Source: Candidatus Saganbacteria bacterium
Lineage (GTDB): Bacteria > Margulisbacteria > WOR-1 > XYC2-FULL-46-14 > WPAF01
Assembly (NCBI GenBank): GCA_009772965.1
Contig: WPAF01000001.1
Span: 1 to 64,000, forward strand
Reading direction: 5' to 3'
DNA: 64,000 nucleotides
Shown: in pieces, positions 27,127 through 62,269 of the stretch
Layout of the letters: every line of letters starts with the position of its first letter
Numbering within the stretch: the stretch's first letter is position 1
Notes under the pieces: model-generated
Databases searched by the model: none
What the model was told of the DNA's origin: nothing
Seen by the model: the letters and a program-made list of their open reading frames with translations, nothing else
Translations under genes and position numbers: made by a program

Positions 27127-28313
27127 TTTTTAATACCCACCAATTCATATGATTTATCTTCAAGCGCCTTAAATGATTTTTCCTGATCAGCTTGAGTTCG
27201 TATGATTTCAATATTTTTTAGCCCGAAAGTCTTTTTTTTCTCATCACTTTCAATAATCTTTATGATCGAATTAGCTGCAGTATACACATCATTCGAATCT
27301 CCAATAAAACCGTTTTCCCCATCTTTGATCCATTCCCTCATGTTTTTTAGATTAGAAACAACGGGGACGCAACCGCAAGCCATTGCCTCAAGCATTGAAA
27401 CTGCTCCAGAATCAGTATAAGAAAGAGAAACATAAACATCGGCTGCTCGGTAGAATTTTGCCATATCTTGATAATCCACTTTTTCAACCCATACAATTTT
27501 ATCATAGATCCCGAGATCTTGAGCCAATTTAACGAATTTATTCTTTTCAAGCGCGGAATGATATTTCATTACCAAACGAGCTTCCGGTATTTTTTTGACT
27601 ACCACAGAGAAAGCTTTTATAAGGGTAGTTATATTATAGTGCGCATCATATAACCCTCGAGTGCTCAATACCATAGGATGACCATCAATACCTAGCCGTT
27701 TTTTTAGGTTGCCGGGATCAATATGCGGATTAAAAGTTTTTAGATCAATGCCAATGTGCATGAATTTTGATTTTTCTGGAGACATGCCTAATTCGATGGC
27801 TGCTTTATTCGCTTCCTCCGATGTATGAGTCAGGAAATCAATCCTTTTCATAGCAAATTTGACCCAGATGCGGTGAAATAACGATTTTTTCGGATAGAAT
27901 AACAATTCCGGGCCGCCGGTAAAAACCATAAATGGATGAAAACCAGTAAATATTCCGATATATCCGGCAAAACCTATATAAAAACCCTGTAAAATATCCG
28001 GTTTAATTTGCTTAAGTAATTGCTTGGTTTTCCTGATATATGAAGGATATTTTAAGTAACTTAAATAGTTAAACTTTGCCCATTTAACCCAATCTGTAAG
28101 TAAATTATTCTGCCTGCATGACCTCGAAGCTGTATCTGATAAAGATACAACTTTGTTTTGCAAAGAATGCACTGTCACACCTTCAATTTCCTCATAAACA
28201 TTTGACAATAGGTGAACTTCGTGCCCTTGAGCTGCAAACCATTTAACCCATCTTTTTACATGTTCGCTATTAGCCCAGCCGAGGAAACAGATTTTTAATT
28301 TATTTTTTTGCAT
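27123..28313 (-). CDS. Glycosyltransferase family 4
   Basis: KICFLGWANSEHVKRWVKWFAAQGHEVHLLS; YTDSGAVSMLEAMACGCVPVVSN. Confidence 0.88.
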   Translation of the reverse strand: MQKNKLKICFLGWANSEHVKRWVKWFAAQGHEVHLLSNVYEEIEGVTVHSLQNKVVSLSDTASRSCRQNNLLTDWVKWAKFNYLSYLKYPSYIRKTKQLLKQIKPDILQGFYIGFAGYIGIFTGFHPFMVFTGGPELLFYPKKSLFHRIWVKFAMKRIDFLTHTSEEANKAAIELGMSPEKSKFMHIGIDLKTFNPHIDPGNLKKRLGIDGHPMVLSTRGLYDAHYNITTLIKAFSVVVKKIPEARLVMKYHSALEKNKFVKLAQDLGIYDKIVWVEKVDYQDMAKFYRAADVYVSLSYTDSGAVSMLEAMACGCVPVVSNLKNMREWIKDGENGFIGDSNDVYTAANSIIKIIESDEKKKTFGLKNIEIIRTQADQEKSFKALEDKSYELVGIKN

Positions 28314-29232
28314 TAAAACCCGCTTTTTTACTAAGAAAAATTCGTAATCGAAAGAAAAGATAAAAAGGGTCGCTCATAAACATCTTGAATAAATACTTTA
28401 AAGTTACAAATAAATGTTTTGATTGAAAGAATATTCTTTGAGCGGTCACAAAAAACAGCTCAGCCCTCCTTCTTCTTATTAAATATGAGTCAATCAACTG
28501 TTTATTTGCCAATTTAGAATAATGCAAATTAATCACATAAATCTGGCTATTGCACATAAGCTCGTGGCTCTTATAACTTGCCGAAGAGTAGTTAAAATCG
28601 TGCTTAATATATTCTCCCATGATATCGGGTAAAAATACAAATTTAAAACCCTGCCGTGCCATTCGTAGCCATAATTCGTAATCTTCGACAAAATGCAGAT
28701 GCTTGATATCTTCTGAAAAGTACCCAACTTTTTCAATTACGGATTTTTTAAAGGTTGTAGCAGAGGTAGAAAGCGGGTTTCCGCTAAAAAGCAATTTTCT
28801 GTGCATATCTTTTTCGTATGACCCATCAGCGCAAATTCCTATGATCTTGCCATTCTGCCTTATATACTGCCGGTGGCACACAATCGAAGCATCCGGATCA
28901 TCTGCATATGTTCCGGCAACTTTTTCCAGTTTCTCTGGATACCAGATATCATCCTGATCAAGTATAGCTATTATATCTCCAGACGAATATCTTATTGCCG
29001 TATTCCTGGCGCCGCCTAAACCTTTATTTTTTTGTTCCACATAAACAAAGTTTATTTCAGGGTGTGTAGCTATATAATCTTTAACTATGCTGCCTACATC
29101 ATCGGGTGATTCATCATTTACCAGAACAATTTCAAAATTTCTATAAGTTTGTGCCAACGCGGAATCAAGGGTCTTTCTTATAAATCTCGCTCCGTTATAT
29201 AAAGGCGTGATGACCGAGAATTTCAAAAACAC
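28300..29232 (-). CDS. Glycosyltransferase family 2
   Basis: FSVITPLYNGARFIRKTLDSALAQT, VNDESPDDVGS, LDQDDIWYPEKL. GTG start at 29232 (just after the upstream stop) is more plausible than the 46-nt-overlapping ATG at 29283. Confidence 0.87.
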   Translation of the reverse strand: MFLKFSVITPLYNGARFIRKTLDSALAQTYRNFEIVLVNDESPDDVGSIVKDYIATHPEINFVYVEQKNKGLGGARNTAIRYSSGDIIAILDQDDIWYPEKLEKVAGTYADDPDASIVCHRQYIRQNGKIIGICADGSYEKDMHRKLLFSGNPLSTSATTFKKSVIEKVGYFSEDIKHLHFVEDYELWLRMARQGFKFVFLPDIMGEYIKHDFNYSSASYKSHELMCNSQIYVINLHYSKLANKQLIDSYLIRRRRAELFFVTAQRIFFQSKHLFVTLKYLFKMFMSDPFYLFFRLRIFLSKKAGFNAKK

Positions 29233-29237
29233 TCTTC

Positions 29238-30083
29238 TTAAGTCCCCCACTCTTTGATGTATTCTTCTAATGCCTGTTTCCATGATGGCATAGGGTTTAT
29301 TCCTAATAAGTCGAGCTTGTAATTTTTTATCGCTTCAGAAGCCGCCCTTTGCGCTGGAAGCGGGAAGCGATCAGATGAAACCGGTATAATCATTACTTCT
29401 CGTCCTAGTAACTTTACAATCTCCAATGCTATCTCATAACGACTGCAAACACCGGTATTTGCCAGATGGTACAAACCGAAATTACCGGTCTTGATAATTT
29501 TATTAATACCGCGAAGAAAATCACGGGCGAAAGTTGGGCTTCCAAACTTGTCATTCACCACTTCAATTTCATCGCGCGTTTTGCATAATTCGATGATCTT
29601 CCCGACGAACTTCTTGTCCTTAGCAGAGCCGCCGCCAATCATCCAACCAGCGCGAAAAATATAATATTTATGAAGAAGATCTCGAACAATTAGTTCCCCC
29701 TCATATTTTGCTTTGCTGTAAATGTTAAGTGGAGCGGGAGAATCAAATTCGGTGTGAATCTGCCCTGCATGGCCGTTAAATACGCCTCCCGTGCTAATAT
29801 ATATCATTACCGCATTGAATTTCTGACAAGCCAAAGCAACATTATAAGTTCCCATAGCATTTGTCCTGAAAGCATGATCTATTTCGCTTTCGCATTTATC
29901 AACATTTGTTTCCGCTGCCAAGTGTAGAACCGTAGTGGGCTTATATTTAGCAACCAAACTAAAAACCAAATCTTTGTTGGTCACATCCATCTCAGGGATA
30001 TCCGTTAAGGCCAGTTCTACGTCATGGAATATTTCTTTGACATAAGAACCGACCATCCCGTTCGCACCAGTCACTAAAATCAT
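29238..30083 (-). CDS. RmlD-like sugar-nucleotide reductase (SDR)
   Basis: LVTGANGMVGSYV; HLAAETNVDKCE; YISTGGVFNGHAGQIHTEFDSPAPLNIYSKAKYEGE. Confidence 0.83.
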   Translation of the reverse strand: MILVTGANGMVGSYVKEIFHDVELALTDIPEMDVTNKDLVFSLVAKYKPTTVLHLAAETNVDKCESEIDHAFRTNAMGTYNVALACQKFNAVMIYISTGGVFNGHAGQIHTEFDSPAPLNIYSKAKYEGELIVRDLLHKYYIFRAGWMIGGGSAKDKKFVGKIIELCKTRDEIEVVNDKFGSPTFARDFLRGINKIIKTGNFGLYHLANTGVCSRYEIALEIVKLLGREVMIIPVSSDRFPLPAQRAASEAIKNYKLDLLGINPMPSWKQALEEYIKEWGT

Positions 30084-30847
30084 TGATTTTTCTCCTTCCT
30101 CATAATTTTCTCAACTTTTTTTAGGTCCTCGATATTGTCAACACTGTAGGTTTCATGATCCGACATAACCATTTTAATTTTATAGCCATGCTCAAGCACC
30201 CTTAGCATGTCAACCGATTCGGCGATCTCGAGCGGCGTCGGCTCCAGCCGGTTAAACTTGATCAGGAAATCCCGGCGGAACGGAATGACACAAACCTGTT
30301 TTAGCATCAGGAGAGACTTGGCTCCCTTTTTCCACGAAGGAATTGGTTCACGGGAAAAATAGAGGGCAAAATTATGTTGGTCAACAACAACTTTGACTTC
30401 GTTAGGGTCATCTTGTTCGATCCGGTTTTTCAAGGTGGACATCAAATTGACCACTTGAATCAAATTATCCTCAAGTAGCGGAGCGACGGCGGAATCAATC
30501 ATCTCCGGCCGTATCATTGGCTCATCCCCCTGGATCATTACTACAATATCAACTTTTTTGCCGGTTTCTGCTTCAACTTTCACAAGACATTCTGCCGTAC
30601 GGTCGGATGCACGCACATGCTTATCTGAGGTCATAACCGCCTTCCCGCCAATCGATTGAATATAATTAGCGATTTCCTGGTCGCAGGTCGCAACGTAAAC
30701 CTCATTCAATATCCGGCTTAATTTACTCCGTTTAAAAACATGTCCCAACATCGGGACACCAAGTATCGATGCCAGCGGTTTACCTGGAAAACGAGATGAA
30801 GCCATCCGGGCAGGAATAATACCGATAATATTCTGATTGCTTTTCAT
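30080..30847 (-). CDS. KdsB-like CMP-transferase (divergent; substrate may not be Kdo)
   Basis: IGIIPARMASSRFPGKPLASILGVPMLGHVFKRS; VMTSDKHVRASDRTAE; VVMIQGDEPMI. HLGIYGY-type block replaced by QVCVIPFRRDFL. Confidence 0.82.
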   Translation of the reverse strand: MKSNQNIIGIIPARMASSRFPGKPLASILGVPMLGHVFKRSKLSRILNEVYVATCDQEIANYIQSIGGKAVMTSDKHVRASDRTAECLVKVEAETGKKVDIVVMIQGDEPMIRPEMIDSAVAPLLEDNLIQVVNLMSTLKNRIEQDDPNEVKVVVDQHNFALYFSREPIPSWKKGAKSLLMLKQVCVIPFRRDFLIKFNRLEPTPLEIAESVDMLRVLEHGYKIKMVMSDHETYSVDNIEDLKKVEKIMRKEKNQ

Positions 30848-30855
30848 GAATCCTC

Positions 30856-32757
30856 CTAACTAACCTTAATGATTGCTTTAATAACTTCACCTTTCAGGTG
30901 TTTTTTCCAAGCGAGCTCATAATCATCAAAACTGAAAATACATTGTGTCAATGCGCTCAAGTCGATCCGCTCATAAACCCTGATTGCTTCAATAAAATCT
31001 TCTCTCGTGCTGCCAACGGATCCAACCAGTGTCTTGTCAAAACAAACAAGTGATTCAAAATTATATTCCATTTTCGCGTAAGGAAGGCCGAGTAGTAATA
31101 TTTTTACCCCGGCTTTGCTTTCTGCCAGAACTTTTTTCAATGCTTCGGTTTTGCCGGTTGCTTCAATGATATAATCGTATTGCCCTAGACCGTTAAGCTC
31201 ACTAAAAGCTTTTATTTTTGGATTCTTGATGCCAGCGGTTTTTATATTATTTTTATCAAAAACATCAACTTCATAACCGGAGAGAACCATCAGCTGGGCA
31301 CAAAGGTTGCCAATTGTCCCAAAACCGATGATGGCAACTTTCCGGTGGCTCCCGTGGTCGCCGGAGGTCAATTTCCTTACGCCGCGCAGGGAGACCGCCA
31401 GCGGTTCTATCAGGCACGCTTTTTCCAACAAAGCATCGGGCATCAGCTTGTGGACAAAACGGCTGTCCATCTTCAGGTACTGCGAGTAAGCACCATTAAA
31501 ATTGAGGACACCAACTTCCTTTCTTTCCGAACAGCCAAGCGGGTTGTTGTTTTGGCAGGCCGGACACGTTCCACAGCCGAGAATACATTCACCAACGATC
31601 TTATCGCCGACTTCGAGACCATTTACTTTTTTCCCTTTGGCAGCAACCAGACCAGAAAACTCATGTCCCGGGACGATCGGATATTTTGCCCAGCCCGAAG
31701 TATAATAAGCCAGTTTCCCCTTAAGAATATCAAGATCGGTCGAACAAACTGCAACATATTTAACGTTAACCAGCACTTCTTTGTCTCCGATTGCCGGCCT
31801 TTCCTTTATTTGGATCGAATGCTGATCCGGACCTGTGATCAAAACGCTCTTGTTAGCTTCGGGAAAATACAATTCGGTTTTTAATTCCATTGTCAGTCTG
31901 CCGACATTCCTCTGGCCGTCATAAAGTCCTTTAATTTGGAAAAATCGGTAAAGGGGCGACTGTGCAATTTTTCTTAGCAAGCGGCCATGGGTCAAGCCGT
32001 AGAAAAAATCTCGGACTATCAACAAAGCGAACAGCATCACCGCCCATCTAAAACTATGATAATAATTAGGGAAGATTGCTTGATAAGCAATTGCTTCCCG
32101 TTTGAACCGATTATAAATGTGCCGGTAATTCTCTTCGTGAATATGAATAACCTCTGCGTCAGCCTTGTAATAAATATAATGTCCCTTCTTTTGAACCTTG
32201 TGTGCCCAATCAATATCTTCAAGGCCGGGCAAACTTTCATCAAAGGGGATCCTTTCCCAAAGTGATTTTCTGATCGCCGCATTGGCATTGTTGCCAAACG
32301 ATTCTTCAACCAGTATCTTAGATTTATCTCCAAAATTGCTGCACAGATCTCTATCTTCTGACAGTTTTGTCAGATGGTTGCCTTCCTGCCTTCCATAAAC
32401 CATAGCAATCTTTTCGTCTTCAAACGGCTGGAGCATATTAGTTAGCCACATTTTGTCCTTTGGATAAGCATGTCCGCTAATAAAGATCAGGTAATCACCG
32501 GTGGCGTTACGGCAGCCAAGATTAAGCGAGCGACCGAAAGAAAAATCTTCTGGGGGAATGGTAATAATCCTGGTCTGGAAACGACGGGCAATCTCAAGTG
32601 TGTCATCGGCCGATCCCGAATCGACTATGATTGCTTCCCAGTTCTTATAATTTTGATCCTGTAACATTTTAAGCAGTTTTGCCAGATGGCGGCCTTCATT
32701 GAATGTCCGAATAATAATAGAAGCTTTGACTTTACTCACTTTATTTTCCTTAACCAA
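30856..32757 (-). CDS. Fusion: N-terminal GT2 + C-terminal zinc-dependent MDR dehydrogenase
   Basis: aa 10-250 GT2 (ASIIIRTFNEGRHLAKLL, FGRSLNLGCRNATGDYL); aa about 290-633 MDR (CSTDLDILKGK, GHEFSGLVAAKG, CILGCGTCPACQNNNPLGC, VAIIGFGTIGNL). No internal stop. Confidence 0.87.
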   Translation of the reverse strand: MVKENKVSKVKASIIIRTFNEGRHLAKLLKMLQDQNYKNWEAIIVDSGSADDTLEIARRFQTRIITIPPEDFSFGRSLNLGCRNATGDYLIFISGHAYPKDKMWLTNMLQPFEDEKIAMVYGRQEGNHLTKLSEDRDLCSNFGDKSKILVEESFGNNANAAIRKSLWERIPFDESLPGLEDIDWAHKVQKKGHYIYYKADAEVIHIHEENYRHIYNRFKREAIAYQAIFPNYYHSFRWAVMLFALLIVRDFFYGLTHGRLLRKIAQSPLYRFFQIKGLYDGQRNVGRLTMELKTELYFPEANKSVLITGPDQHSIQIKERPAIGDKEVLVNVKYVAVCSTDLDILKGKLAYYTSGWAKYPIVPGHEFSGLVAAKGKKVNGLEVGDKIVGECILGCGTCPACQNNNPLGCSERKEVGVLNFNGAYSQYLKMDSRFVHKLMPDALLEKACLIEPLAVSLRGVRKLTSGDHGSHRKVAIIGFGTIGNLCAQLMVLSGYEVDVFDKNNIKTAGIKNPKIKAFSELNGLGQYDYIIEATGKTEALKKVLAESKAGVKILLLGLPYAKMEYNFESLVCFDKTLVGSVGSTREDFIEAIRVYERIDLSALTQCIFSFDDYELAWKKHLKGEVIKAIIKVS

Positions 32758-33665
32758 ACACTTCCTGGAAAAGTTGATTTTTCATATGAATTAAATGCTT
32801 TCTTTAGTTCATCGGGATGCTTTAACCTCATATAACTACCGGACCAAAGAATTTCAAAGCTATCATTAAATGTCAAAAAAGCCTGAAGCAGATATTGTTC
32901 ATTATAAAACATGAGTTCTTCCAATACCCATTTTTTTGGATATTCAGCTGGCAGAAATATATCGTGTATGTGTACAACAACCCCCTTATTCAACCTTGGT
33001 AAAATTTCTAAATATTCATATTGAACATCGCTACCGATCTTCAATACATGGCTTGAATCAATAAAAAGGATATCATTTTCCTGCAATTCAAGAAACTTTG
33101 CCAATGGAACATTCTGAACCTCAGTTTGTAAGAGTTTTAATAACCCGGGGAAGCCTGTTTTTAGGGTTTCATTCGGATAAGGTTCAATCGCAATTAGCTC
33201 ACAATCATCACTGTTTTCCTTGTTTTTAAGTGTTGCCCGAGCAGATAAATATGTAGAATACCCCGACCCGATTTCTATTATTTTTCTGGGTTTTAAATCG
33301 CGAATCATGCAATATAATATTTCTCCATCAATTTCTTCGAAACATCTATTTTTAATATAAAAATCATAAGGATTTGTGTTTGAACCTTTTAATAACTGAA
33401 ACTGATCATATTCGATTTTGTATTTTTCGGCAAAGTCGGATAGTAAAATTACTTGCTCCTTTTCGTTCATTTTTATTCCTATCAGTTCTGATGGATACTC
33501 CCAAATTTTATCTTTAAGAGTTCTAATTTCAGGAATGGGCGAATAAAATCGATTTCTAACCAAACTAAAACCAAATAGCTGAGAAAACCAAAATATATTT
33601 CTGTATAACATCATTCCATACTTTAATCTAAATTTATCCTTCAATCTTATTATCGAGCGATACAT
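32736..33665 (-). CDS. Class I SAM-dependent methyltransferase
   Basis: PRKIIEIGSGYSTYLSARA; LFIDSSHVLKIGSDVQYEYLEILPRLNKGVVVHIHDI. ATG at 33665 fits the preceding stop better than 33764. Confidence 0.75.
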   Translation of the reverse strand: MYRSIIRLKDKFRLKYGMMLYRNIFWFSQLFGFSLVRNRFYSPIPEIRTLKDKIWEYPSELIGIKMNEKEQVILLSDFAEKYKIEYDQFQLLKGSNTNPYDFYIKNRCFEEIDGEILYCMIRDLKPRKIIEIGSGYSTYLSARATLKNKENSDDCELIAIEPYPNETLKTGFPGLLKLLQTEVQNVPLAKFLELQENDILFIDSSHVLKIGSDVQYEYLEILPRLNKGVVVHIHDIFLPAEYPKKWVLEELMFYNEQYLLQAFLTFNDSFEILWSGSYMRLKHPDELKKAFNSYEKSTFPGSVWLRKIK

Positions 33666-33666
33666 A

Positions 33667-34317
33667 TTACTCTTCAACCTCCGCAAAAGCAGTGCACGGC
33701 ATACTATCAACATCTTTAACAAACAAAGGAATAACAAATATCCTTTTAATTCTTTCGGGAACAATTTCCAGATTCAAATCTTCAATTATCATAACCTTTT
33801 TAAGCAAAATCCGATGAGCTGCTTCCCCTTTCTTGAGATGCTGGGGAGATGCTATAGAAATAGTGTCTATCCCAATTGCTTTTAACTTCGGATAATTTTT
33901 AAGAATAACATCTGTGGCTTCAGGATGCAGCCAAGGGCCATTATGTATATATGCGGATTCCTTTCTTTTTCTACCAAATCCCGTTCGGATTAAAAGCAAA
34001 TCACATTTCTTGTCTTCCCCCCCGCATAGATCATTTGCATTGATAGATTCGCCTACTTTTTTCACTATATCCAACACGCTACATCTATTAAAGATAAACT
34101 CTTTGATTTGATAATCCCCTATCTTTTTACCCCGTGGATAGAAATGATAGGGTGCATCAATATGCGTGCCATTGTGAGTAAAGATCGTAACGGAAGCCGA
34201 ACTCCAGTTATCACCTTTTTTAAAAGAATTTACCTCTTTATACTTATTACTCGGGTTATTTTCAAAAATTGGCATGTCCGGCGTTAAATCATAAGATATT
34301 TTTAAATATTTATTCAT
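33667..34317 (-). CDS. Cyclase/kynurenine-formamidase family metal-dependent hydrolase
   Basis: THNGTHIDAPYHF signature (HxGTHxDxPxH). Confidence 0.85.
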   Translation of the reverse strand: MNKYLKISYDLTPDMPIFENNPSNKYKEVNSFKKGDNWSSASVTIFTHNGTHIDAPYHFYPRGKKIGDYQIKEFIFNRCSVLDIVKKVGESINANDLCGGEDKKCDLLLIRTGFGRKRKESAYIHNGPWLHPEATDVILKNYPKLKAIGIDTISIASPQHLKKGEAAHRILLKKVMIIEDLNLEIVPERIKRIFVIPLFVKDVDSMPCTAFAEVEE

Positions 34318-35246
34318 GCTTTTCTTCCGCTTTTCAATCCTTTTAAAAGATTATTCAAAGTATTCTGATGAACATATGCCCAAGCCGCGGGACTACTATT
34401 GGCATTATGCGGCGCCAGAAGGCAATTATCCATTTTCCTTAAGGGGCTATTTTTAGAAAGGGGTTCATCCTCAAAAACATCTAATCCAGCTCCGGCAATC
34501 TTTTTTTGCCGTAATGCACTGATCAGGGATTTCTCTTCAATGATAGGCCCGCGAGCGGTATTAATGATGCAGGCAGTTGGTTTCATCAACGCGAATTCTT
34601 TTTCACCTATTAAATGAAAACTGGTAGGATTTAAGTCGCAATTAATACTTATATAATCTGATTTTTTCAGCAGATTTAATTTTGAAACCATTTCAACTCC
34701 AAATGGTCTAATCTTTTTGACATCATTACCAAGAATTTTCATTCCAAAAGATAACGCGCGCTTAATAACTGCCGTGCCAATATTGCCAACTCCAATTACA
34801 CCAAGGACACATTCTTTAAGGGAAATGCACGGTTTTTTTCTCCATTCACCTTGGCGCATTGCCACTGTGCTCCATGGAACCTTCCTGGAAAAACTCAAGA
34901 TATATGCTAAAACCGAGTCTGCAACTGGATCAGTAAACGCATTAGGAGTATTGAAAACACTGATGCCGAGTTTTTGCGCTTCAACTTTATCGATTGAATC
35001 AACACCTGTCCCCCATTTGGCTAAAACTTTAAGTTTTTTAGCTTTATGGAAAACTTTCGCAGTAAAGCGATCATCTCCACAGATAACTCCATCAATGTCT
35101 TCAATCAAATTGAGCAAATCTGCTTCCTCTAATCTTTCTTTGACAGCAGGAATAATAATCTCAATGTTATTCTCCTTAAAGAACGGACGGAACTCGTCAA
35201 TCACCGATTGCATATAAGGTGCGGAAACTAAAACTTTCCAATACAT
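34314..35246 (-). CDS. D-isomer-specific 2-hydroxyacid dehydrogenase (PGDH-like)
   Basis: KWGTGVDSIDK, LGVIGVGNIGTAVIKRA, IINTARGPIIEE, AGLDVFEDEPL, LAPHNANSS. ATG at 35246 preferred over 35300. Confidence 0.9.
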   Translation of the reverse strand: MYWKVLVSAPYMQSVIDEFRPFFKENNIEIIIPAVKERLEEADLLNLIEDIDGVICGDDRFTAKVFHKAKKLKVLAKWGTGVDSIDKVEAQKLGISVFNTPNAFTDPVADSVLAYILSFSRKVPWSTVAMRQGEWRKKPCISLKECVLGVIGVGNIGTAVIKRALSFGMKILGNDVKKIRPFGVEMVSKLNLLKKSDYISINCDLNPTSFHLIGEKEFALMKPTACIINTARGPIIEEKSLISALRQKKIAGAGLDVFEDEPLSKNSPLRKMDNCLLAPHNANSSPAAWAYVHQNTLNNLLKGLKSGRKA

Positions 35247-35250
35247 ATTA

Positions 35251-36681
35251 TCATTCACTTTGGGCAAACCGTGACTTAAGCCTATGAACGAATATTCCAA
35301 GCAAAGGCCGTGTCTCTATTAAATACTTTAGAAAATATAAACCTACAAGCCAGAACCATTTTATCCCATGGGGTAAGTATGAAACTAGCGTCCAATATCT
35401 TCGTTTGATGAAATAATGCGTCATTCGCCGTTGCATTGAGATACACTCTCTAGCCTGTTTTTGCGTCATTTTAATTGTTGGCCGAGTGTTGTAATTAGTC
35501 GTAGCCACTATTTCCTCTTCTTCCAAAAGTCCCTCTTGTTTACAGATATTATATAATTTAGTTTTCGGAAAAGGATAGAAAAATGTGCAAAGGCCGTAAT
35601 TTGGCGCAAGTATTTTATTTAATTTAAATGTCTCTTCCATTTCTTGTTTTGTTTCAAAAGGAAATCCGACAATATTAAAGGTAAATAGTTCGATCCCGGC
35701 ATCTTTTATCATTTTCGATTTCTCGATATACATTGAATTAGAATGTTTTCTATTTAAGAGCTCATTTCTTAATCTTTCATTACCACTTTCCAACCCTGAT
35801 GAGGCAACACGGCATCCACTTTTTTTCATGGCTTCAACTATCTCTGGATCTATGCACTCTATTCGCACGCATATCCTATACGGTTTTTTTATTCTTTTTT
35901 GATATTCCTCTGCAAATTTTATAAACCATGCTTTGTTAGCAATCAAAAGGTCGTCTTCAAATCCGATGAATTCAGTTTCCGGGTATTGCTCGTTCATAAA
36001 TTCAAGAAATCTAATGCTGTATTCAACAGAAGGTATCCTAAAATATCCGAGGCGAGAAGGGTAAACATTGCTCAGGATACCATTGCAGCAATAATTGCAA
36101 TTAAAAGGACAACCGCGGCTCATCATAAGGTTTAAATGCCTATTTCTTACTACAAGATTTCTATCAAAAATCGAGTAATCAGGGAAATCTAATGAAGAAA
36201 GATCATTAATAAACTGTGCAATTCGATTTTTGATTATCTGACCATTCTGTTTCCAAAAGAATCCTTCTGTGGAATAAATATCCTGATTATTATTAATATT
36301 ACTTAATAATTGTTTAATCGGCATTTCTCCCTCGCCAATACAGACACCATTTAAATCGCTGCAATTTAAAAAAACTTCTGGATCCAAAGTCGAACCAACG
36401 CCTCCTGCTATTTGCAATATCTCCGGATAAATTCCCAGTGCTTTAGAATATATTGCTAAATATTTCAATTGTGGTGATGTGCAAGAAAAAGCAACGATTG
36501 AGGGACAAAGCTTCTCTATTCTATTCCTGAAATCATTGCAACTTATTTTAGATACTATATTGAGGCAGAAAACATTAAAGCCGGCCTTTTTGATTATTGG
36601 GACAAGATAAGCAATCCCATGATTTACTCCAGTAAAACCAGATTCTATTGAAAGATTAACAAAAACGAACCTCTTGTTCAT
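35251..36681 (-). CDS. B12-binding-domain-like radical SAM protein
   Basis: MSRGCPFNCNYCCNG (CxxxCxxC) with N-terminal Rossmann-like domain. Confidence 0.88.
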   Translation of the reverse strand: MNKRFVFVNLSIESGFTGVNHGIAYLVPIIKKAGFNVFCLNIVSKISCNDFRNRIEKLCPSIVAFSCTSPQLKYLAIYSKALGIYPEILQIAGGVGSTLDPEVFLNCSDLNGVCIGEGEMPIKQLLSNINNNQDIYSTEGFFWKQNGQIIKNRIAQFINDLSSLDFPDYSIFDRNLVVRNRHLNLMMSRGCPFNCNYCCNGILSNVYPSRLGYFRIPSVEYSIRFLEFMNEQYPETEFIGFEDDLLIANKAWFIKFAEEYQKRIKKPYRICVRIECIDPEIVEAMKKSGCRVASSGLESGNERLRNELLNRKHSNSMYIEKSKMIKDAGIELFTFNIVGFPFETKQEMEETFKLNKILAPNYGLCTFFYPFPKTKLYNICKQEGLLEEEEIVATTNYNTRPTIKMTQKQARECISMQRRMTHYFIKRRYWTLVSYLPHGIKWFWLVGLYFLKYLIETRPLLGIFVHRLKSRFAQSE

Positions 36682-38587
36682 TTAATATCTCCTTTTTCTC
36701 AATTGTTTTTATTTGTGTAATAGTTTTTTTTATGGTGTCTTCAATTATATCATGGAAAAAAAGCTTGATAACGTCTGGCCAACTATTCATTATTTGATTT
36801 ATCGATTGCTTATCATTAATTGCGCTAAGTGCAAGCAATAACTCTTGTTTATTTTTAACCAAAAAAACTGCTTCAGGAAATTTAGCCATAGGATTATGGC
36901 TAAACTGTGCATGGCATATATAAATAATAGGAACAACGCCTAAAACCATCGCTTCCAGAGCTACGCTTCCACCCGTTAGTAATATCGTATCTGAAGCAGA
37001 AATATAATCATAAATTGACACTGATGGAGGTAAAATCGCAAACGAATTCTTTTCGATATTTTCTCTTAACAGCTTCTTAACCGCAGGGACAAACCCTTGA
37101 AATTCTTTGGCGTTGGGATGAAGTTTGACAAAAATGTGGATTGCGGTGCCAACTTGTGTTGCCGCCGCTAAAAGATCGCCCAACATACAGAGTGTTTCCG
37201 GTAATAATGGGGAAGTAGCAACAAAAACGATCTTTTTATTCAATGGTATAGATAATTTACGACGCAAGTCTATGCTGCTAGGCCTGTTTTTTGCATATTC
37301 AAAAAGTGGAATATAACGGATCGGACCGAAGGCAACGAGCCGCTCGGCAGGGAAACCAGCCTCAGTCATGAATTTTTGGCCTATTTCACCGTTCGTCAGT
37401 ATCTGATCCGGCAACGGAATTGTACTGGTATTAAATTCATTAGGCTGAAAAACATAATTCAGAAAATTTTTACCAAGCGCAGAATGCTGGAAGCCGAAAG
37501 TCGTCGTCTGTCGCCGTGTATTATATAGCAGTGCCCGCTCCAACGGCTGAAATTCCAGGCGGAAGAGAACGGCTTTTAGATTCCGCAGCTGATAGCGGCG
37601 CAGTGCCTTGTCAAGCAGCAGCCACTCAAATAGAACTGGATTCGTTAGCGACTTAAAGTACTCCTCCCAAAAAAATGCCGAAAGATCTTTCCCTTTAAGC
37701 TTAAAACTCAATCCAGCAAATTGCTTTAATGAATTATAGAACTTTAAGAAAAGACCGGGTGCGACAGGCGCCAAAAAGTCAGCCGGTTTAAGGAACTGTT
37801 CTAGAATTATCATTGGCCGGCTCTTAAAGAAATCCCTGCCTTTGCGAAGTTGCCGCCAATCAGCCATCAACCAGATTAGATAAGTAACCTCAGTTTGCTT
37901 CGCCAGCTCATCCGGCACTGCTTGGAGGAAAATGTCAACTGCTTTGGCTGAATACGGATTTTGCCACCATGCCGGATAGATACTGAAAATGCCGATCGCA
38001 TCAGTTTTGGGGATGCTTTTTGTTCCCGGGCTAATGGTTTTTAGCACACTTTTCCTTATGATAACTTTAATTATCTCTCTCAAAGCATAATAATAGTAAA
38101 GCAGTACAAAACGAAAACTGGCGGTTAAATTACCCCCATAGCGGGGCGGTTGCCGCTTTTTCAGAACATTTTCCATGACTTTATCGTCAAGGTAAAATAA
38201 TATCTGATCATATTGATCCCTTTCCACCACATAATGAAAACGTAAAAAGGCATAAAGGCGGTGTATTATCTTATCTGTCCAGATATTTTTCTCGCTTATA
38301 TTCAGGAACCACCAAAGATCCCGCCCTTCATGAAGAATTTCCAATCGCGGCATTTTTAGGTAAAAATTGCGCGCCTCTTTTTCTGCCCGTTTTGAAATCT
38401 CGCTGGTTTCAACTATCTGTACCCCTTCAGGTAGATACAATTGCTCAGGCGAAAGACCAAACGTCAATAGGTGATACTTTTCTCTCCCAGCAGCGTTTTT
38501 TATCTCTTTTTGCCAGTTATTTTTCAGGTTGTCAACAACAATAAATATCTTTTTATTATTTGTATCCATGCTTAAACCATTGATCAT
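36656..38587 (-). CDS. Putative GT-B glycosyltransferase / surface carbohydrate biosynthesis protein
   Basis: C-terminal ASDTILLTGGSVALEAMVLGVVPIIYI and LPETLCMLGDLLAAATQVGTAIHIFVKLHP. Confidence 0.55.
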   Translation of the reverse strand: MINGLSMDTNNKKIFIVVDNLKNNWQKEIKNAAGREKYHLLTFGLSPEQLYLPEGVQIVETSEISKRAEKEARNFYLKMPRLEILHEGRDLWWFLNISEKNIWTDKIIHRLYAFLRFHYVVERDQYDQILFYLDDKVMENVLKKRQPPRYGGNLTASFRFVLLYYYYALREIIKVIIRKSVLKTISPGTKSIPKTDAIGIFSIYPAWWQNPYSAKAVDIFLQAVPDELAKQTEVTYLIWLMADWRQLRKGRDFFKSRPMIILEQFLKPADFLAPVAPGLFLKFYNSLKQFAGLSFKLKGKDLSAFFWEEYFKSLTNPVLFEWLLLDKALRRYQLRNLKAVLFRLEFQPLERALLYNTRRQTTTFGFQHSALGKNFLNYVFQPNEFNTSTIPLPDQILTNGEIGQKFMTEAGFPAERLVAFGPIRYIPLFEYAKNRPSSIDLRRKLSIPLNKKIVFVATSPLLPETLCMLGDLLAAATQVGTAIHIFVKLHPNAKEFQGFVPAVKKLLRENIEKNSFAILPPSVSIYDYISASDTILLTGGSVALEAMVLGVVPIIYICHAQFSHNPMAKFPEAVFLVKNKQELLLALSAINDKQSINQIMNSWPDVIKLFFHDIIEDTIKKTITQIKTIEKKEILNEQEVRFC

Positions 38588-39323
38588 TTTTTAATATTTC
38601 AATCACTTTCGGAATATCTTCAGGGGTATCTACCGGCTGAGTACTAAAAGCAATAACACCTGAAGCGATTGGAATATCATTTTCGATTAGCCGCAACATG
38701 TCTATTCCCTCGATAAGTTCGAGTTTTGACTGCGGTATATCCGAAACTTTCTGCAGAAAATCTCCTCGAAAAGCCATGACACAGGTTTGACGATAAAATA
38801 TCGCCCTTTTCTTTATATCAAAAGCTGATGAGGGGATTTCTTGTCTGGTCAGATAAATTAATCGTTTATTGTTAGAGATAATCGCTTTTATGCGGTGATG
38901 ATTTGTGAGATCAGCAGGATCTTTTATTTCTTCAATAAGGTTGGAACATTCGCATATTTTATCATCTAATAATGTTTCTATAGTCATTTCAATTGCTGGT
39001 GGAGGAATAACCGGCTCATCACCCTGAACATTTATCAAAATATCTTCATGGCTGACATATCCTAGTCTTGCGGCAGCATCAGCCACTCTGTCTATTGCCG
39101 AGTGGCATTCGGCAGATGTCATAACCACTTCCGCGCCAAAAGCTTCTGCCGCCTTCAAAACTTTTTCTTCACACACAGCTAAAACCACCCTATTAATTCC
39201 TTTAGCCAAAAGAGATCTTCTATAGACATGCTCTATCATCGAAAGCCCTTCGATCATCGTTAAAGGCTTATCCGGGAATCTCCAGGAGCCCAATCTAGCC
39301 GGTATTACTATTAGTGTTCGCAT
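38556..39323 (-). CDS. KdsB-like CMP-transferase (second, divergent)
   Basis: LIVIPARLGSWRFPDKPLTMIEGLSMIEHVYRRS; VMTSAECHSAIDRVA; LINVQGDEPVI; QTCVMAFRGDFL; EGIDMLRLIE. Confidence 0.8.
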   Translation of the reverse strand: MRTLIVIPARLGSWRFPDKPLTMIEGLSMIEHVYRRSLLAKGINRVVLAVCEEKVLKAAEAFGAEVVMTSAECHSAIDRVADAAARLGYVSHEDILINVQGDEPVIPPPAIEMTIETLLDDKICECSNLIEEIKDPADLTNHHRIKAIISNNKRLIYLTRQEIPSSAFDIKKRAIFYRQTCVMAFRGDFLQKVSDIPQSKLELIEGIDMLRLIENDIPIASGVIAFSTQPVDTPEDIPKVIEILKNDQWFKHGYK

Positions 39324-47425: not shown

Positions 47426-48064
47426 CTATTCCCTTTCTTTAATTCGTTTTAACAACACTTGTTCTGCCAGCCAAAAATCGAATGGATCATCAATTTCCAC
47501 ATTTTGTTCTCGTGAAATAACCATCCTTTCGGCTTTTTCGCCAATAAGTTTTCCTTGTCTGACAAGCTTTGCTGTCAATATAAGCACATTCCCATCATCA
47601 TAAAAAAAACCTTTTCTCTTCTGTCTGTTCTCGAAATACGTGCCATATTCTTCATACATGCAAATAAATCCAGTTGCTAAACTTTCTGCTCCCTTTTCCT
47701 CAAAACGCTTAATACACTCATCGATTAATCCTTCGTCTTTAATTGGGGCATTTGGTTGCAAAATAACTACTACTTTGGCATTAATTACAGCCAAAGCATG
47801 CTGAATGACGGAAATGCCACTAGCAGTATCGGTCGCCAGTTCGGGCGGACGGTCAATAACTTCTGCATCGCAGGATCTTGCAAACTCTGCAATTTCTTTG
47901 TCTTCGGTTGAGACAACAAAACGATCCAGCAACTTTGACTTCTTTGCCGCTTCAATTGTCCAGGCGATCAGCGGTTTACCCGCAATCATTCTAATATTTT
48001 TCCGCGGCACACCTTTGCTTCCTCCACGCGCCGGGATGATCCCAAGATACTTTGTTTTTTTCAT
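47426..48064 (-). CDS. neuA: Acylneuraminate cytidylyltransferase family (CMP-nonulosonate synthetase)
   Basis: LGIIPARGGSKGVPRKNIRMIAGKPLIAWTIEAA; FVVSTEDKEIAEFA; RPPELATDTASGISVIQHAL; VVILQPNAPIK. Confidence 0.87.
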   Translation of the reverse strand: MKKTKYLGIIPARGGSKGVPRKNIRMIAGKPLIAWTIEAAKKSKLLDRFVVSTEDKEIAEFARSCDAEVIDRPPELATDTASGISVIQHALAVINAKVVVILQPNAPIKDEGLIDECIKRFEEKGAESLATGFICMYEEYGTYFENRQKRKGFFYDDGNVLILTAKLVRQGKLIGEKAERMVISREQNVEIDDPFDFWLAEQVLLKRIKERE

Positions 48065-48074
48065 ACAGTTCCTC

Positions 48075-48821
48075 TTAATAGATCGTCCAACCGCCATCAA
48101 TTAAGATATTTTGGCCGGTAATATAATTTGATTTGTCGCTTATCAGAAACCTAACAAGCTCCGCTACTTCGCTCGAAGAAACCATCCGGCCTAAGGGGGT
48201 TCGACTGCTGTAAACTTCTGCAAACTTTGATCCACCTTTTTGTGAATCACACAATCCCCCCGGCGAAACAGCATTACATCTGATATTGTACTGTCCATAG
48301 CGTGCCGCGATCCATTTGCAAAAGTGAATTATACCAGCCTTGGCTACCGCGTAAACTAAGGGTGAGGTGATTTTTGTTCCTTCGTAAATAGCAAAAGTCG
48401 GAGCCACCACTCCTTGAATAGAACCAATATTAATGATACTGCCACGTTTTCTCTTTTTCATGAGTGGAATAACCGCTTTGGTCAATAGAAAGCTACCAAG
48501 CAAATTAACTTCCAGCACTCTTTTGAATGTTTCTGATGAGTAGTTTTCAAGCTCTTCGGCAAAACCCGGAGGTTGACAAGAAGCGTTATTAATCAAACCG
48601 TAAACCGTCATTCCACGATTTTTAAATAATTTCCCCAATTCTGCCACTTGTTTTTCATCGGTAATATCGCATTGGAAAAATTGGCCGTGGCAATCTTTGC
48701 CGGCGGGCTCCTGCTTATCAATCACCACTATCTCGTACCCATCTTCTTCCAGAATCTTAGCGTAACTTTGACCCAACACTCCTACCCCCCCTGAAATCAA
48801 CACTGTTTCCTTTATGGTCAT
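48075..48821 (-). CDS. Short-chain dehydrogenase/reductase
   Basis: LISGGVGVLGQSYA; LINNASCQPPG; YAVAKAGIIHFCKWIAARYG; NYITGQNILIDGGWTIY. Confidence 0.87.
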   Translation of the reverse strand: MTIKETVLISGGVGVLGQSYAKILEEDGYEIVVIDKQEPAGKDCHGQFFQCDITDEKQVAELGKLFKNRGMTVYGLINNASCQPPGFAEELENYSSETFKRVLEVNLLGSFLLTKAVIPLMKKRKRGSIINIGSIQGVVAPTFAIYEGTKITSPLVYAVAKAGIIHFCKWIAARYGQYNIRCNAVSPGGLCDSQKGGSKFAEVYSSRTPLGRMVSSSEVAELVRFLISDKSNYITGQNILIDGGWTIY

Positions 48822-60476: not shown

Positions 60477-61419
60477 AATTGAATATCCTATTTACTGATT
60501 TTGCCAGGTCGATTTGTTGATCGATATCAGGCAAATTGCTGTAATCCTTGTCGATTAAAATACTTTTGACCATTTTATAAAGACCTGGTTTGTGTCTTTG
60601 GTCATCATTATCCGGCATGTCGATGTTCACCCATGAAAACTGATCCTTTTTGCAAAATTGCAATTCCTCCAGAGGAGACAACTTATAGCGCCCCGTTTTG
60701 GTTGAAATTTCTATGTTCCATCTTCCGCCGCCAGCCCAGGTAGAAAAATAACTAAATAGACATTCTGATGTTTTTCCACATCCAACAAAGACATTCCCGC
60801 TTGGATGGCGTTCCCACGTGCCATCTCTCATTACGGTTAACTCCACAGGCAGCCCAACAAGGTAAAAAGCCGTATCTATAACATGCGTCGAATTAGCAAG
60901 TCCCCATCGTTTAAGAACCTGGGGCGATTTTGGCGAACTAAAAATGTCTTTCTCGCGGTCAGTAAAATCAAAAAACGCAGCTACTGGCCCGCCATCAGCA
61001 GAAATCTTTTCCTTTAGGATCAACACAGAATTATAAAACCTGCGATTATAAGCTATCCGAAAAATCACATCCGCGTTAATTTTCTTTTTTATTTCCTGAA
61101 ACTCAAAAAGATTAAGGGCGCCCGGCTTTTCCACTAAAATATTTTTGTACCCTTTTTCCAAACACGCACAACTAACCTCTTTAAGCGACTCAACGGCTGA
61201 AGCAATAATGACCAGGTCAGCCGCTTTTGGACTAAAGTTCTTCAAAGCCTCGACTCCACCCCCAAAACCGGTCGCGCCATATTTTTCAGCAAGTTTGACT
61301 GCTTTCTCCTGGTTGCGTCCGATAACCGAAACCTGGCACCCGAAGGCCCGCAGCACTTTGAGATATTCTTCGGCCATATAGTCAGAGCCGAACAATATGA
61401 CGTTTTGCTTAGACATCAA
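60466..61419 (-). CDS. Gfo/Idh/MocA family oxidoreductase (divergent dinucleotide motif)
   Basis: ILVEKPGALNLFEFQEI; RIAYNRRFYNSV; N-terminal VILFGSDYMAEEYLKVL in place of GxGxxG. Confidence 0.75.
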   Translation of the reverse strand: MMSKQNVILFGSDYMAEEYLKVLRAFGCQVSVIGRNQEKAVKLAEKYGATGFGGGVEALKNFSPKAADLVIIASAVESLKEVSCACLEKGYKNILVEKPGALNLFEFQEIKKKINADVIFRIAYNRRFYNSVLILKEKISADGGPVAAFFDFTDREKDIFSSPKSPQVLKRWGLANSTHVIDTAFYLVGLPVELTVMRDGTWERHPSGNVFVGCGKTSECLFSYFSTWAGGGRWNIEISTKTGRYKLSPLEELQFCKKDQFSWVNIDMPDNDDQRHKPGLYKMVKSILIDKDYSNLPDIDQQIDLAKSVNRIFNYED

Positions 61420-62269
61420 TAAACCCTCTCAATTTCTCACGAGCTTTCTTTTCGCTTTCAAATATCCGTTTCTGCCCATCTCCAATAATTTGAGACACAA
61501 CTTTAATTGTCTTGGATAATTTATCCATACCTTGGACTTCAACACTGCTGGCCTGATCCGTTCCCCACATACTATGATCCAGTGTTATATGCCTTTCTAC
61601 CACCACCACACCCAAGGAAGCCGCCACTGCTGTGGACTCTAAGCCATATTCATGTCCACTGTATCCAACAAGACAATTATATCTTTCCTTAAACTTTGGT
61701 ATCATCCGAAGATTTAACTCATCATACCTTGCTGGATAAGAAGAATTGCAGTGCAAAAGCACATATTGAGAAGCAAATTCATCTAATATTTCAACTGCCT
61801 TGTCAATTTCTTCGATATCACTCATGCCCGTTGAAAGAATAATCGGCAATTTTGAATTACAAGCTTCCTTCAGAAGCTCATGATGTGTCAAATGGGCGGA
61901 AGGGATTTTAATAAAAGGCAAATTATAATTCACAGCAAAGCGCAAGCTATCAACATCCCATACCGAAAGTGACCAATCAAGTGGTTTTTCCCTACAGTAT
62001 TGATCAATATAATCATACTCCTTCTTGCCAAACTCCAATTTGTGTTTATATTCCAAATAAGTCATTTCCCCCCAGGGTGTTTTTCGTATTACACTTTTTT
62101 GCTTTTCAGGAACACATATATCTGGATTTCTTTTTTGAAATTTAACGCAATCCCAGGAACAGGCAAAAGTTGCATCTATCAATTGCTTGGCGATCTGCAG
62201 ATCGCCATTATGATTAATGCCAACTTCAGCTATCAAATAAGGCCTTATTAACTCATTAAAATTTCTCAT
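61409..62269 (-). CDS. NeuB-family synthase lacking the SAF domain
   Basis: LIAEVGINHNGDLQIAKQLIDATFACSWDCVKFQKRNPD; VLLHCNSSYPARYDELNLRMI; GYSGHEYGLESTAVAASLGVVVVERHITLDHSMWGTDQASSVE; ends at about 286 aa. Confidence 0.88.
   Translation of the reverse strand: MRNFNELIRPYLIAEVGINHNGDLQIAKQLIDATFACSWDCVKFQKRNPDICVPEKQKSVIRKTPWGEMTYLEYKHKLEFGKKEYDYIDQYCREKPLDWSLSVWDVDSLRFAVNYNLPFIKIPSAHLTHHELLKEACNSKLPIILSTGMSDIEEIDKAVEILDEFASQYVLLHCNSSYPARYDELNLRMIPKFKERYNCLVGYSGHEYGLESTAVAASLGVVVVERHITLDHSMWGTDQASSVEVQGMDKLSKTIKVVSQIIGDGQKRIFESEKKAREKLRGFIDV

Follow-up and report, generated by a model that had tools for sequence, protein, structure and literature searches.

Two KdsB-like cytidylyltransferases in a Candidatus Saganbacteria surface-glycan cluster probably activate a sugar acid other than Kdo

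The closest described relatives of the enzymes considered here are the cytidine monophosphate (CMP)-Kdo synthetases KdsB and KpsU (EC 2.7.7.38; 1h6j, 1gqc, 3k8d, 3duv and 2y6p). Kdo (3-deoxy-D-manno-octulosonic acid) and 8-amino-Kdo are, to our knowledge, the only known substrates of KdsB-type enzymes. A KdsB-family gene also lies in a surface-glycan island of Bacillus coahuilensis, GIm2d, where kdsA, kdsC and kdsD are present and the island is read as true Kdo synthesis (PMC4744853). We analysed positions 1 to 64,000 of contig WPAF01000001.1 of Candidatus Saganbacteria bacterium (GCA_009772965.1; the window), in which an earlier note, made from the sequence alone, had recognised two KdsB-like CMP-transferases. 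Both of these 255-aa open reading frames are real and lie on the minus strand:

30080..30847, minus strand: P0001, KdsB-like cytidylyltransferase 1, 255 aa (PF02348 161 bits, PRK13368 308 bits)
38556..39323, minus strand: P0002, KdsB-like cytidylyltransferase 2, 255 aa (PF02348 127 bits, PRK05450.1-5 235 bits)

We consider it probable that P0001 and P0002 are cytidine triphosphate (CTP)-dependent cytidylyltransferase paralogues from a non-Kdo branch of the KdsB family, which activate a non-Kdo sugar acid with CMP. The two share ~33% identity and both match the CTP_transf_3 domain and KdsB subfamily models, with PRK13368 (P0001) and PRK05450.1-5 (P0002) exceeding their respective cut-offs. Against TIGR00466 (kdsB; cut-off 155.2 bits) P0001 scores 161.4 and P0002 135.1, and five canonical sequences score 217–245 bits. 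The NCBIfam models do not tell the canonical and P0001-type groups apart; the same models cover both. KpsU is the nearest solved relative of each protein, and an AlphaFold2 model of P0001 (predicted local distance difference test 94, predicted template-modelling (TM) score 0.91) finds KpsU 1h6j as its top PDB match (E=1.9e-28), followed by other CMP-Kdo synthetases. Like KdsB and KpsU, the paralogues have this fold (TM 0.89–0.95 to KpsU), the same length, the two metal-binding Asp residues, Arg157 and Gln98. The nucleotide-site motif is also shared and reads as the earlier note gave it, IPARMASSRFPGKPL in P0001 and IPARLGSWRFPDKPL in P0002, with QGDEP in both. P0001 and P0002 have the KdsB fold and an intact CTP and metal site. 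NeuA, PseF and CMP-Kdn synthetases (1eyr, 9ftb and 9t4z) belong to the same superfamily fold and likewise transfer CMP to an ulosonic acid, as we infer for the present pair, but they are only 15–19% identical in the structural match, versus 36–37% for KpsU. The PseF profile gives 43.8 and 24.6 bits for P0001 and P0002, far under its 205.7 cut-off and over the N-terminal half only.

The sugar side of the active site is where the two proteins part from KdsB. The canonical block HLGIYGYRAGF is replaced by QVCVIPFRRDFL in P0001 and QTCVMAFRGDFL in P0002, and EMLEQLR by ESVDMLR and EGIDMLR, respectively, exactly as first noted. We aligned 76 family rows with 26 canonical rows, the latter being KdsBs from the PDB and second KdsBs encoded alongside a P0001-type gene in the same genome; residues are numbered as in E. 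coli KdsB. His181 is conserved in 26 of 26 canonical rows and is Gln in 74 of 76 family rows; Glu210 (26/26) is Asp in all 76, and Gln211 (23/26) is Met in all 76. Consistent differences extend over at least 10 columns (D50C, S74R, G75A, N96M, T125N, H181Q, G183C, Y185I, E210D and Q211M). The family retains R10, R15, K19, R78, Q98, D100, R157, R213 and D235. Six of these, R10, R15, K19, Q98, D100 and D235, form the CTP and two-Mg site and vary little or not at all among the canonical and family rows, P0001 and P0002 included; by alignment position D100 and D235 correspond to D95 and D219, the Mg-A ligands of Aquifex KdsB (PMC3149649).

A 3DUV-based homology-modelling paper, which we take as supporting rather than primary evidence, lists Lys74, Gln98, Arg157, His185, Glu214 and Gln215 (PMC12058783). 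Five of these map cleanly: Gln98 and Arg157 are retained, and His185, Glu214 and Gln215 become Gln, Asp and Met in both P0001 and P0002. The reported KdsB substrate motif 'RHIGVYAYR' (PMC7717453) is also altered in both. Unlike KdsB and KpsU, then, the paralogues carry Gln/Asp/Met for the Kdo-site His/Glu/Gln, along with G183C, Y185I/M and D50C. Because the shared substitutions are near-invariant across the family and almost absent from canonical KdsBs, they are not drift. The family alignment and the 3DUV mapping bear out the earlier proposal of changed substrate-proximal blocks, the catalytic residues being retained. The retained Arg157, Gln98 and metal-binding residues point to a keto sugar with a carboxyl group as the acceptor of CMP, and the changed His, Glu and Gln speak against that sugar being Kdo.

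P0001 was sought in a bacterial and archaeal genome collection, and 80 loci at 55–75% identity were kept; hosts of the P0001-type gene include archaea, Bacillota, Actinomycetota and Patescibacteria, and there are close relatives of P0001 in, for example, Syntrophomonas wolfei and Methanoregula. Within the class of the window's genome the distribution is patchy, with a family member in 8 of 31 genomes. Plasmid and phage collections returned solely canonical or distant KdsBs (<=41% identity); on the Streptomyces plasmids NZ_CP108746.1 and NZ_CP107922.1 a KdsB-like gene with 34% identity to P0001 overlaps or adjoins an SIS-domain gene. In a maximum-likelihood tree of 62 rows, 24 of them canonical, the branch parting P0001, P0002 and all relatives from the canonical sequences receives 98 bootstrap / 92 SH-aLRT, values that are rough since the 200 bootstraps had not fully settled. 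Neither protein is placed among the KdsBs of KdsA-bearing genomes. Together with the pocket and the independence from KdsA described below, this position outside the canonical group supports the core idea of a non-Kdo branch well.

P0002 and its orthologues in two related genomes, G004 and G063 (same module position, 56–65% identical), form their own deep branch (100/100) with a stem length of 1.73. Its sister group consists of the second copies in Saprospiraceae (L065) and Chlorobiota (L068) operons, where a second KdsB-like paralogue lies near the HpaI operon. All three members of the P0002 branch share D50C, G75A, T125N, G183C and E210D, two of the three have H181Q and Q211M, and none has S74R or N96M. 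The suggestion of a common substrate for the paralogues, which the earlier note drew from the shared substitutions, is weakened by the separate deep branch and its lack of S74R and N96M, so that two related substrates are as possible as one. Alternatively, P0002 might have no activity of its own, or might regulate or assist P0001 as a subunit. Of the two copies it has diverged further (GKPL becomes DKPL, on the long stem above), in each of the three related genomes it is accompanied by genes of the P0001 type, and paralogue pairs recur in L065 and L068. The catalytic residues tested are nevertheless retained in P0002 and in its orthologues, and we regard this alternative as very unlikely.

The family also occurs where Kdo synthesis does not. 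We searched 40 genomes with a P0001-type gene using E. coli KdsB and for KdsA (TIGR01362). KdsA scores above its cut-off in 24, every one of which has a second KdsB-family gene; two more have the second gene and no KdsA. The remaining 14 lack a second KdsB, and none of them has KdsA (Fisher p=5e-9). One organism in which the P0001-type gene stands alone, Syntrophomonas wolfei subsp. methylbutyratica (L032), is culturable. The earlier note's statement that no KdsA is visible holds beyond the window, as the sole PF00793 protein of the whole genome (94% complete) is a 3-deoxy-D-arabino-heptulosonate 7-phosphate (DAHP) synthase. Unlike GIm2d, the present module shows none of kdsA, kdsC and kdsD; for KdsC and KdsD this statement covers the module, not the genome. 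Neither the window's genome nor any of 19 relatives of its class has the Kdo transferase WaaA (0/20). LpxC is found in all 20, indicating that lipid A pathways throughout the class lack a recognisable Kdo transferase, and these bacteria may make lipid A lacking Kdo. Lipid A without Kdo is known from cyanobacteria. Because LpxC is universal here, we dropped an argument from the lack of any lipopolysaccharide; the argument is one of no Kdo. A genome of the same class, G019, serves as an internal control: KdsA and KdsB genes adjoin each other there, and the KdsB has His, Gly, Tyr, Glu and Gln as in canonical sequences. This relative (locus L164, G019:C14:66500-69500) has no WaaA, and its Kdo may go into another glycan.

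These data bear on the possibility that P0001 and P0002 activate Kdo as ordinary KdsBs do, in pockets that have drifted, the Kdo being made without KdsA, for example by an HpaI-type aldolase acting on pyruvate and D-arabinose. Such enzymes would have the KdsB fold, would be covered by the same NCBIfam models as canonical KdsBs, could keep Arg157 and Gln98, and could pass the TIGR00466 (161 vs 155 bits) and PRK13368 cut-offs as P0001 does. Yet the family shows the same pocket changes throughout, where drift would have left them variable; a canonical KdsB is retained in addition wherever KdsA is present; and both KdsA and HpaI are missing from the window's genome. We therefore consider this reading unlikely.

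A non-Kdo sugar acid, the reading we favour, is given a setting by the surrounding genes, all on the minus strand:

28300..29283, minus strand: GT2 glycosyltransferase, next after the RmlD-like gene
29238..30083, minus strand: RmlD-like short-chain dehydrogenase/reductase (SDR), 281 aa, 4-bp overlap with P0001 (TIGR01214 240 bits; same position in G004 and G003)
30856..32757, minus strand: 633-aa fusion protein, GT2 glycosyltransferase and zinc-type medium-chain dehydrogenase (Pfam PF00535 and PF08240)
33667..34317, minus strand: PF04199 'cyclase', a kynurenine-formamidase-type metal hydrolase, 216 aa, motif HNGTHIDAPYHF (neighbourhood clusters 6 and 27)
34314..35300, minus strand: D-2-hydroxyacid dehydrogenase, 328 aa (PF02826/PF00389), the partner common to all module versions
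35251..36681, minus strand: B12-binding radical SAM protein, 476 aa (in G004 this position is taken by a radical SAM-cluster protein)
36656..38587, minus strand: GT-B-fold glycosyltransferase, 643 aa, TIGR04326-like, adjoining P0002
40366..42213, minus strand: uncharacterised 615-aa protein, kept at 45–47% in the G004 and G063 loci

In order of transcription the module runs P0002, GT-B, radical SAM, 2-hydroxyacid dehydrogenase, PF04199 hydrolase, methyltransferase, GT2::dehydrogenase fusion, P0001, RmlD-like SDR and GT2. Two related genera have it as well: in G004 the gene order is unchanged except that the methyltransferase is missing, and in G063 it is unchanged except that the radical SAM and methyltransferase genes are missing, the module there being split over two contigs that both break off within the fusion gene. 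Homologues of the GT-B protein directly follow the KdsB-like gene in G004, G063, G071, G005, G006 and G007, and in the last three HpaI precedes it. A fold search with the GT-B protein, tried as a candidate Kdo-transferase fold, returned generic GT-B and epimerase matches (E 5e-10, TM 0.37 over the query), and the donor cannot be read from such matches. At least one of the two CMP-acids would most likely be used by this GT-B protein, the neighbour of P0002.

Clustering of neighbours over the 80 loci shows how the module varies. A D-2-hydroxyacid dehydrogenase is the commonest partner (56/80), followed by an HpcH/HpaI aldolase (52/80), SDRs (37/80), HAD phosphatases (31/80) and PF04199 hydrolases (24/80). 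In 37 of 72 loci the aldolase gene stands directly upstream of the KdsB-like gene, in the same orientation, and the two often overlap by 4 bp. Its product resembles the HpaI, GarL and YfaU class II pyruvate aldolases (best solved relatives 4b5s, 2v5j, 2vws and 1dxe) in its conserved catalytic residues, with D40, H43, R68, E146 and D172 invariant in 47–49 of 49 sequences, and its scores against the NCBIfam equivalogs are all at roughly half the cut-off or lower; unlike those enzymes, it sits with a CMP-transferase. A further variant combines Gfo/Idh, a GmhA-like SIS protein and an inositol-monophosphatase or 3-dehydroquinate-synthase-like protein. In one such cluster the 3-dehydroquinate-synthase-like protein (L100:13223-14308) has SIS and Gfo/Idh partners, which may point to an unusual precursor.

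The window belongs to another type, in which a GT2::Zn-dehydrogenase fusion lies near the KdsB-like gene (11 loci, several in Patescibacteria). Nine of the 80 clustered loci have the fusion in place of HpaI, and HpaI occurs in none of the nine (p=3e-5). The 2-hydroxyacid dehydrogenase is shared between the versions; that of the window falls in the same cluster as those of the relatives, with 68% identity to L028 and 46–70% in GT2::dehydrogenase loci. A genome-wide search found no PF03328 (HpaI) in the window's genome, and every tested GT2::dehydrogenase genome lacks a full-length HpaI, G004 having one partial match of ~110 residues. Five small genomes of this type (those of L034, L044, L061, L093 and L102; 0.5–1.0 Mb) have no HpaI, KdsA or dihydrodipicolinate synthase (DHDPS)-type enzyme, and three of the five also lack NeuB, with the incompleteness of metagenome-assembled genomes as a caveat to all these absences. 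The SAF-less NeuB of the window (61409-62269, NeuB family, 286 aa, no C-terminal SAF part; NeuB_NnaB 229 bits, under cut-off) had been considered as the substrate supplier and is set aside in view of those three genomes.

The earlier note had expected a 2-keto-3-deoxy acid as substrate, and these absences weaken that expectation. It would hold if in every module version an aldolase or synthase supplied the acid to be activated, a true non-Kdo 2-keto-3-deoxy acid such as 2-keto-3-deoxygluconate (KDG) or a heptulosaric acid. The frequency of HpaI, its place directly upstream, its invariant catalytic residues and the action of HpaI, YfaU and GarL, the nearest solved aldolases, on 2-keto-3-deoxy acids speak for such a product. 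The aldolase is, however, missing from the window's genome and, in full length, from the other tested genomes of its type, the five small genomes offer no DHDPS-family or KdsA substitute (nor, in three, NeuB), and the window's own NeuB genes are 20–30 kb distant. A 2-keto-3-deoxy acid in all versions is accordingly possible, though we lean away from it.

We favour a mechanism in which each enzyme would transfer CMP from CTP onto the anomeric hydroxyl of a non-Kdo 2-keto sugar acid by KdsB-like two-metal chemistry, the resulting CMP-acid serving as donor when the products of the surrounding cluster assemble a surface polysaccharide. For most relatives the HpaI-type aldolase would probably supply the acid, aldol addition being the simplest source in HpaI loci. 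In the version of the window, the aldolase may be replaced by the GT2-fused Zn-dehydrogenase, acting with the PF04199 hydrolase and the D-2-hydroxyacid dehydrogenase on an aldolase-free route from aldose through lactone and aldonate to 2-ketoaldonate, an order of steps that is conjecture. The small aldolase-less genomes would either use another aldolase, take up a precursor, or make a 2-ketoaldonate through the dehydrogenases and hydrolase. The prominence of the 2-hydroxyacid dehydrogenase over all versions could also mean that the substrate is no keto acid, and that another hydroxylated acid or polyol from this enzyme is cytidylylated. Against this, KdsB and NeuA chemistry acts on an anomeric hydroxyl, and esterifying CMP with a plain alcohol would not give a glycosyl donor; glycosyltransferases surround the genes, and Arg157 of the FSR substrate motif is retained. 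We find a non-keto substrate quite unlikely.

Several points weigh against activation of a non-Kdo sugar acid by both proteins. The genes of the window give no complete route to any sugar acid. With Arg157 and Gln98 in place, binding of Kdo is conceivable. Conserved differences of P0002 from P0001 (e.g. S75, N98, A147 and L158) may reflect a different substrate. Finally, the two proteins may be tied to a Kdo-less lipid A, given that LpxC is present in the window's genome and in all 19 relatives, although the family itself is patchy in the class.

Should the branch activate another acid, many 'CMP-Kdo synthetase' annotations would be wrong, among them annotations in archaea, Bacillota and Patescibacteria. 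There would then also be a new surface sugar to find. Members of the branch are easily recognised by a KQVC..PFR and DML motif, and their partner genes define small modules. More tentatively, and a little short of an even chance, we propose that this is a new CMP-activated sugar acid, neither Kdo nor nonulosonic, which has its own modules and has spread horizontally through surface-glycan clusters of ~20 bacterial and at least two archaeal phyla, all annotated as Kdo synthesis, and on which aldolase and dehydrogenase routes converge. In the open-licence literature, with most subscription papers outside this scope, we found no account of this KdsB branch and no report of an HpaI-KdsB cluster. 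A possible structural lead, 3-deoxy-pentulosonic acid in Klebsiella K38, was dropped, as the odd sugar of K38 is given as 4-deoxy-hex-4-enuronic acid (PMC6856556).

The module is part of a polysaccharide island of more than 100 kb. Three more CTP_transf_3 genes, NeuA/PseF-like, lie at 47426-48100 of the window and at 64328-64816 and 108584-109108 of the contig (C31), and three NeuB genes are on the same contig. The island probably carries several CMP-acids.

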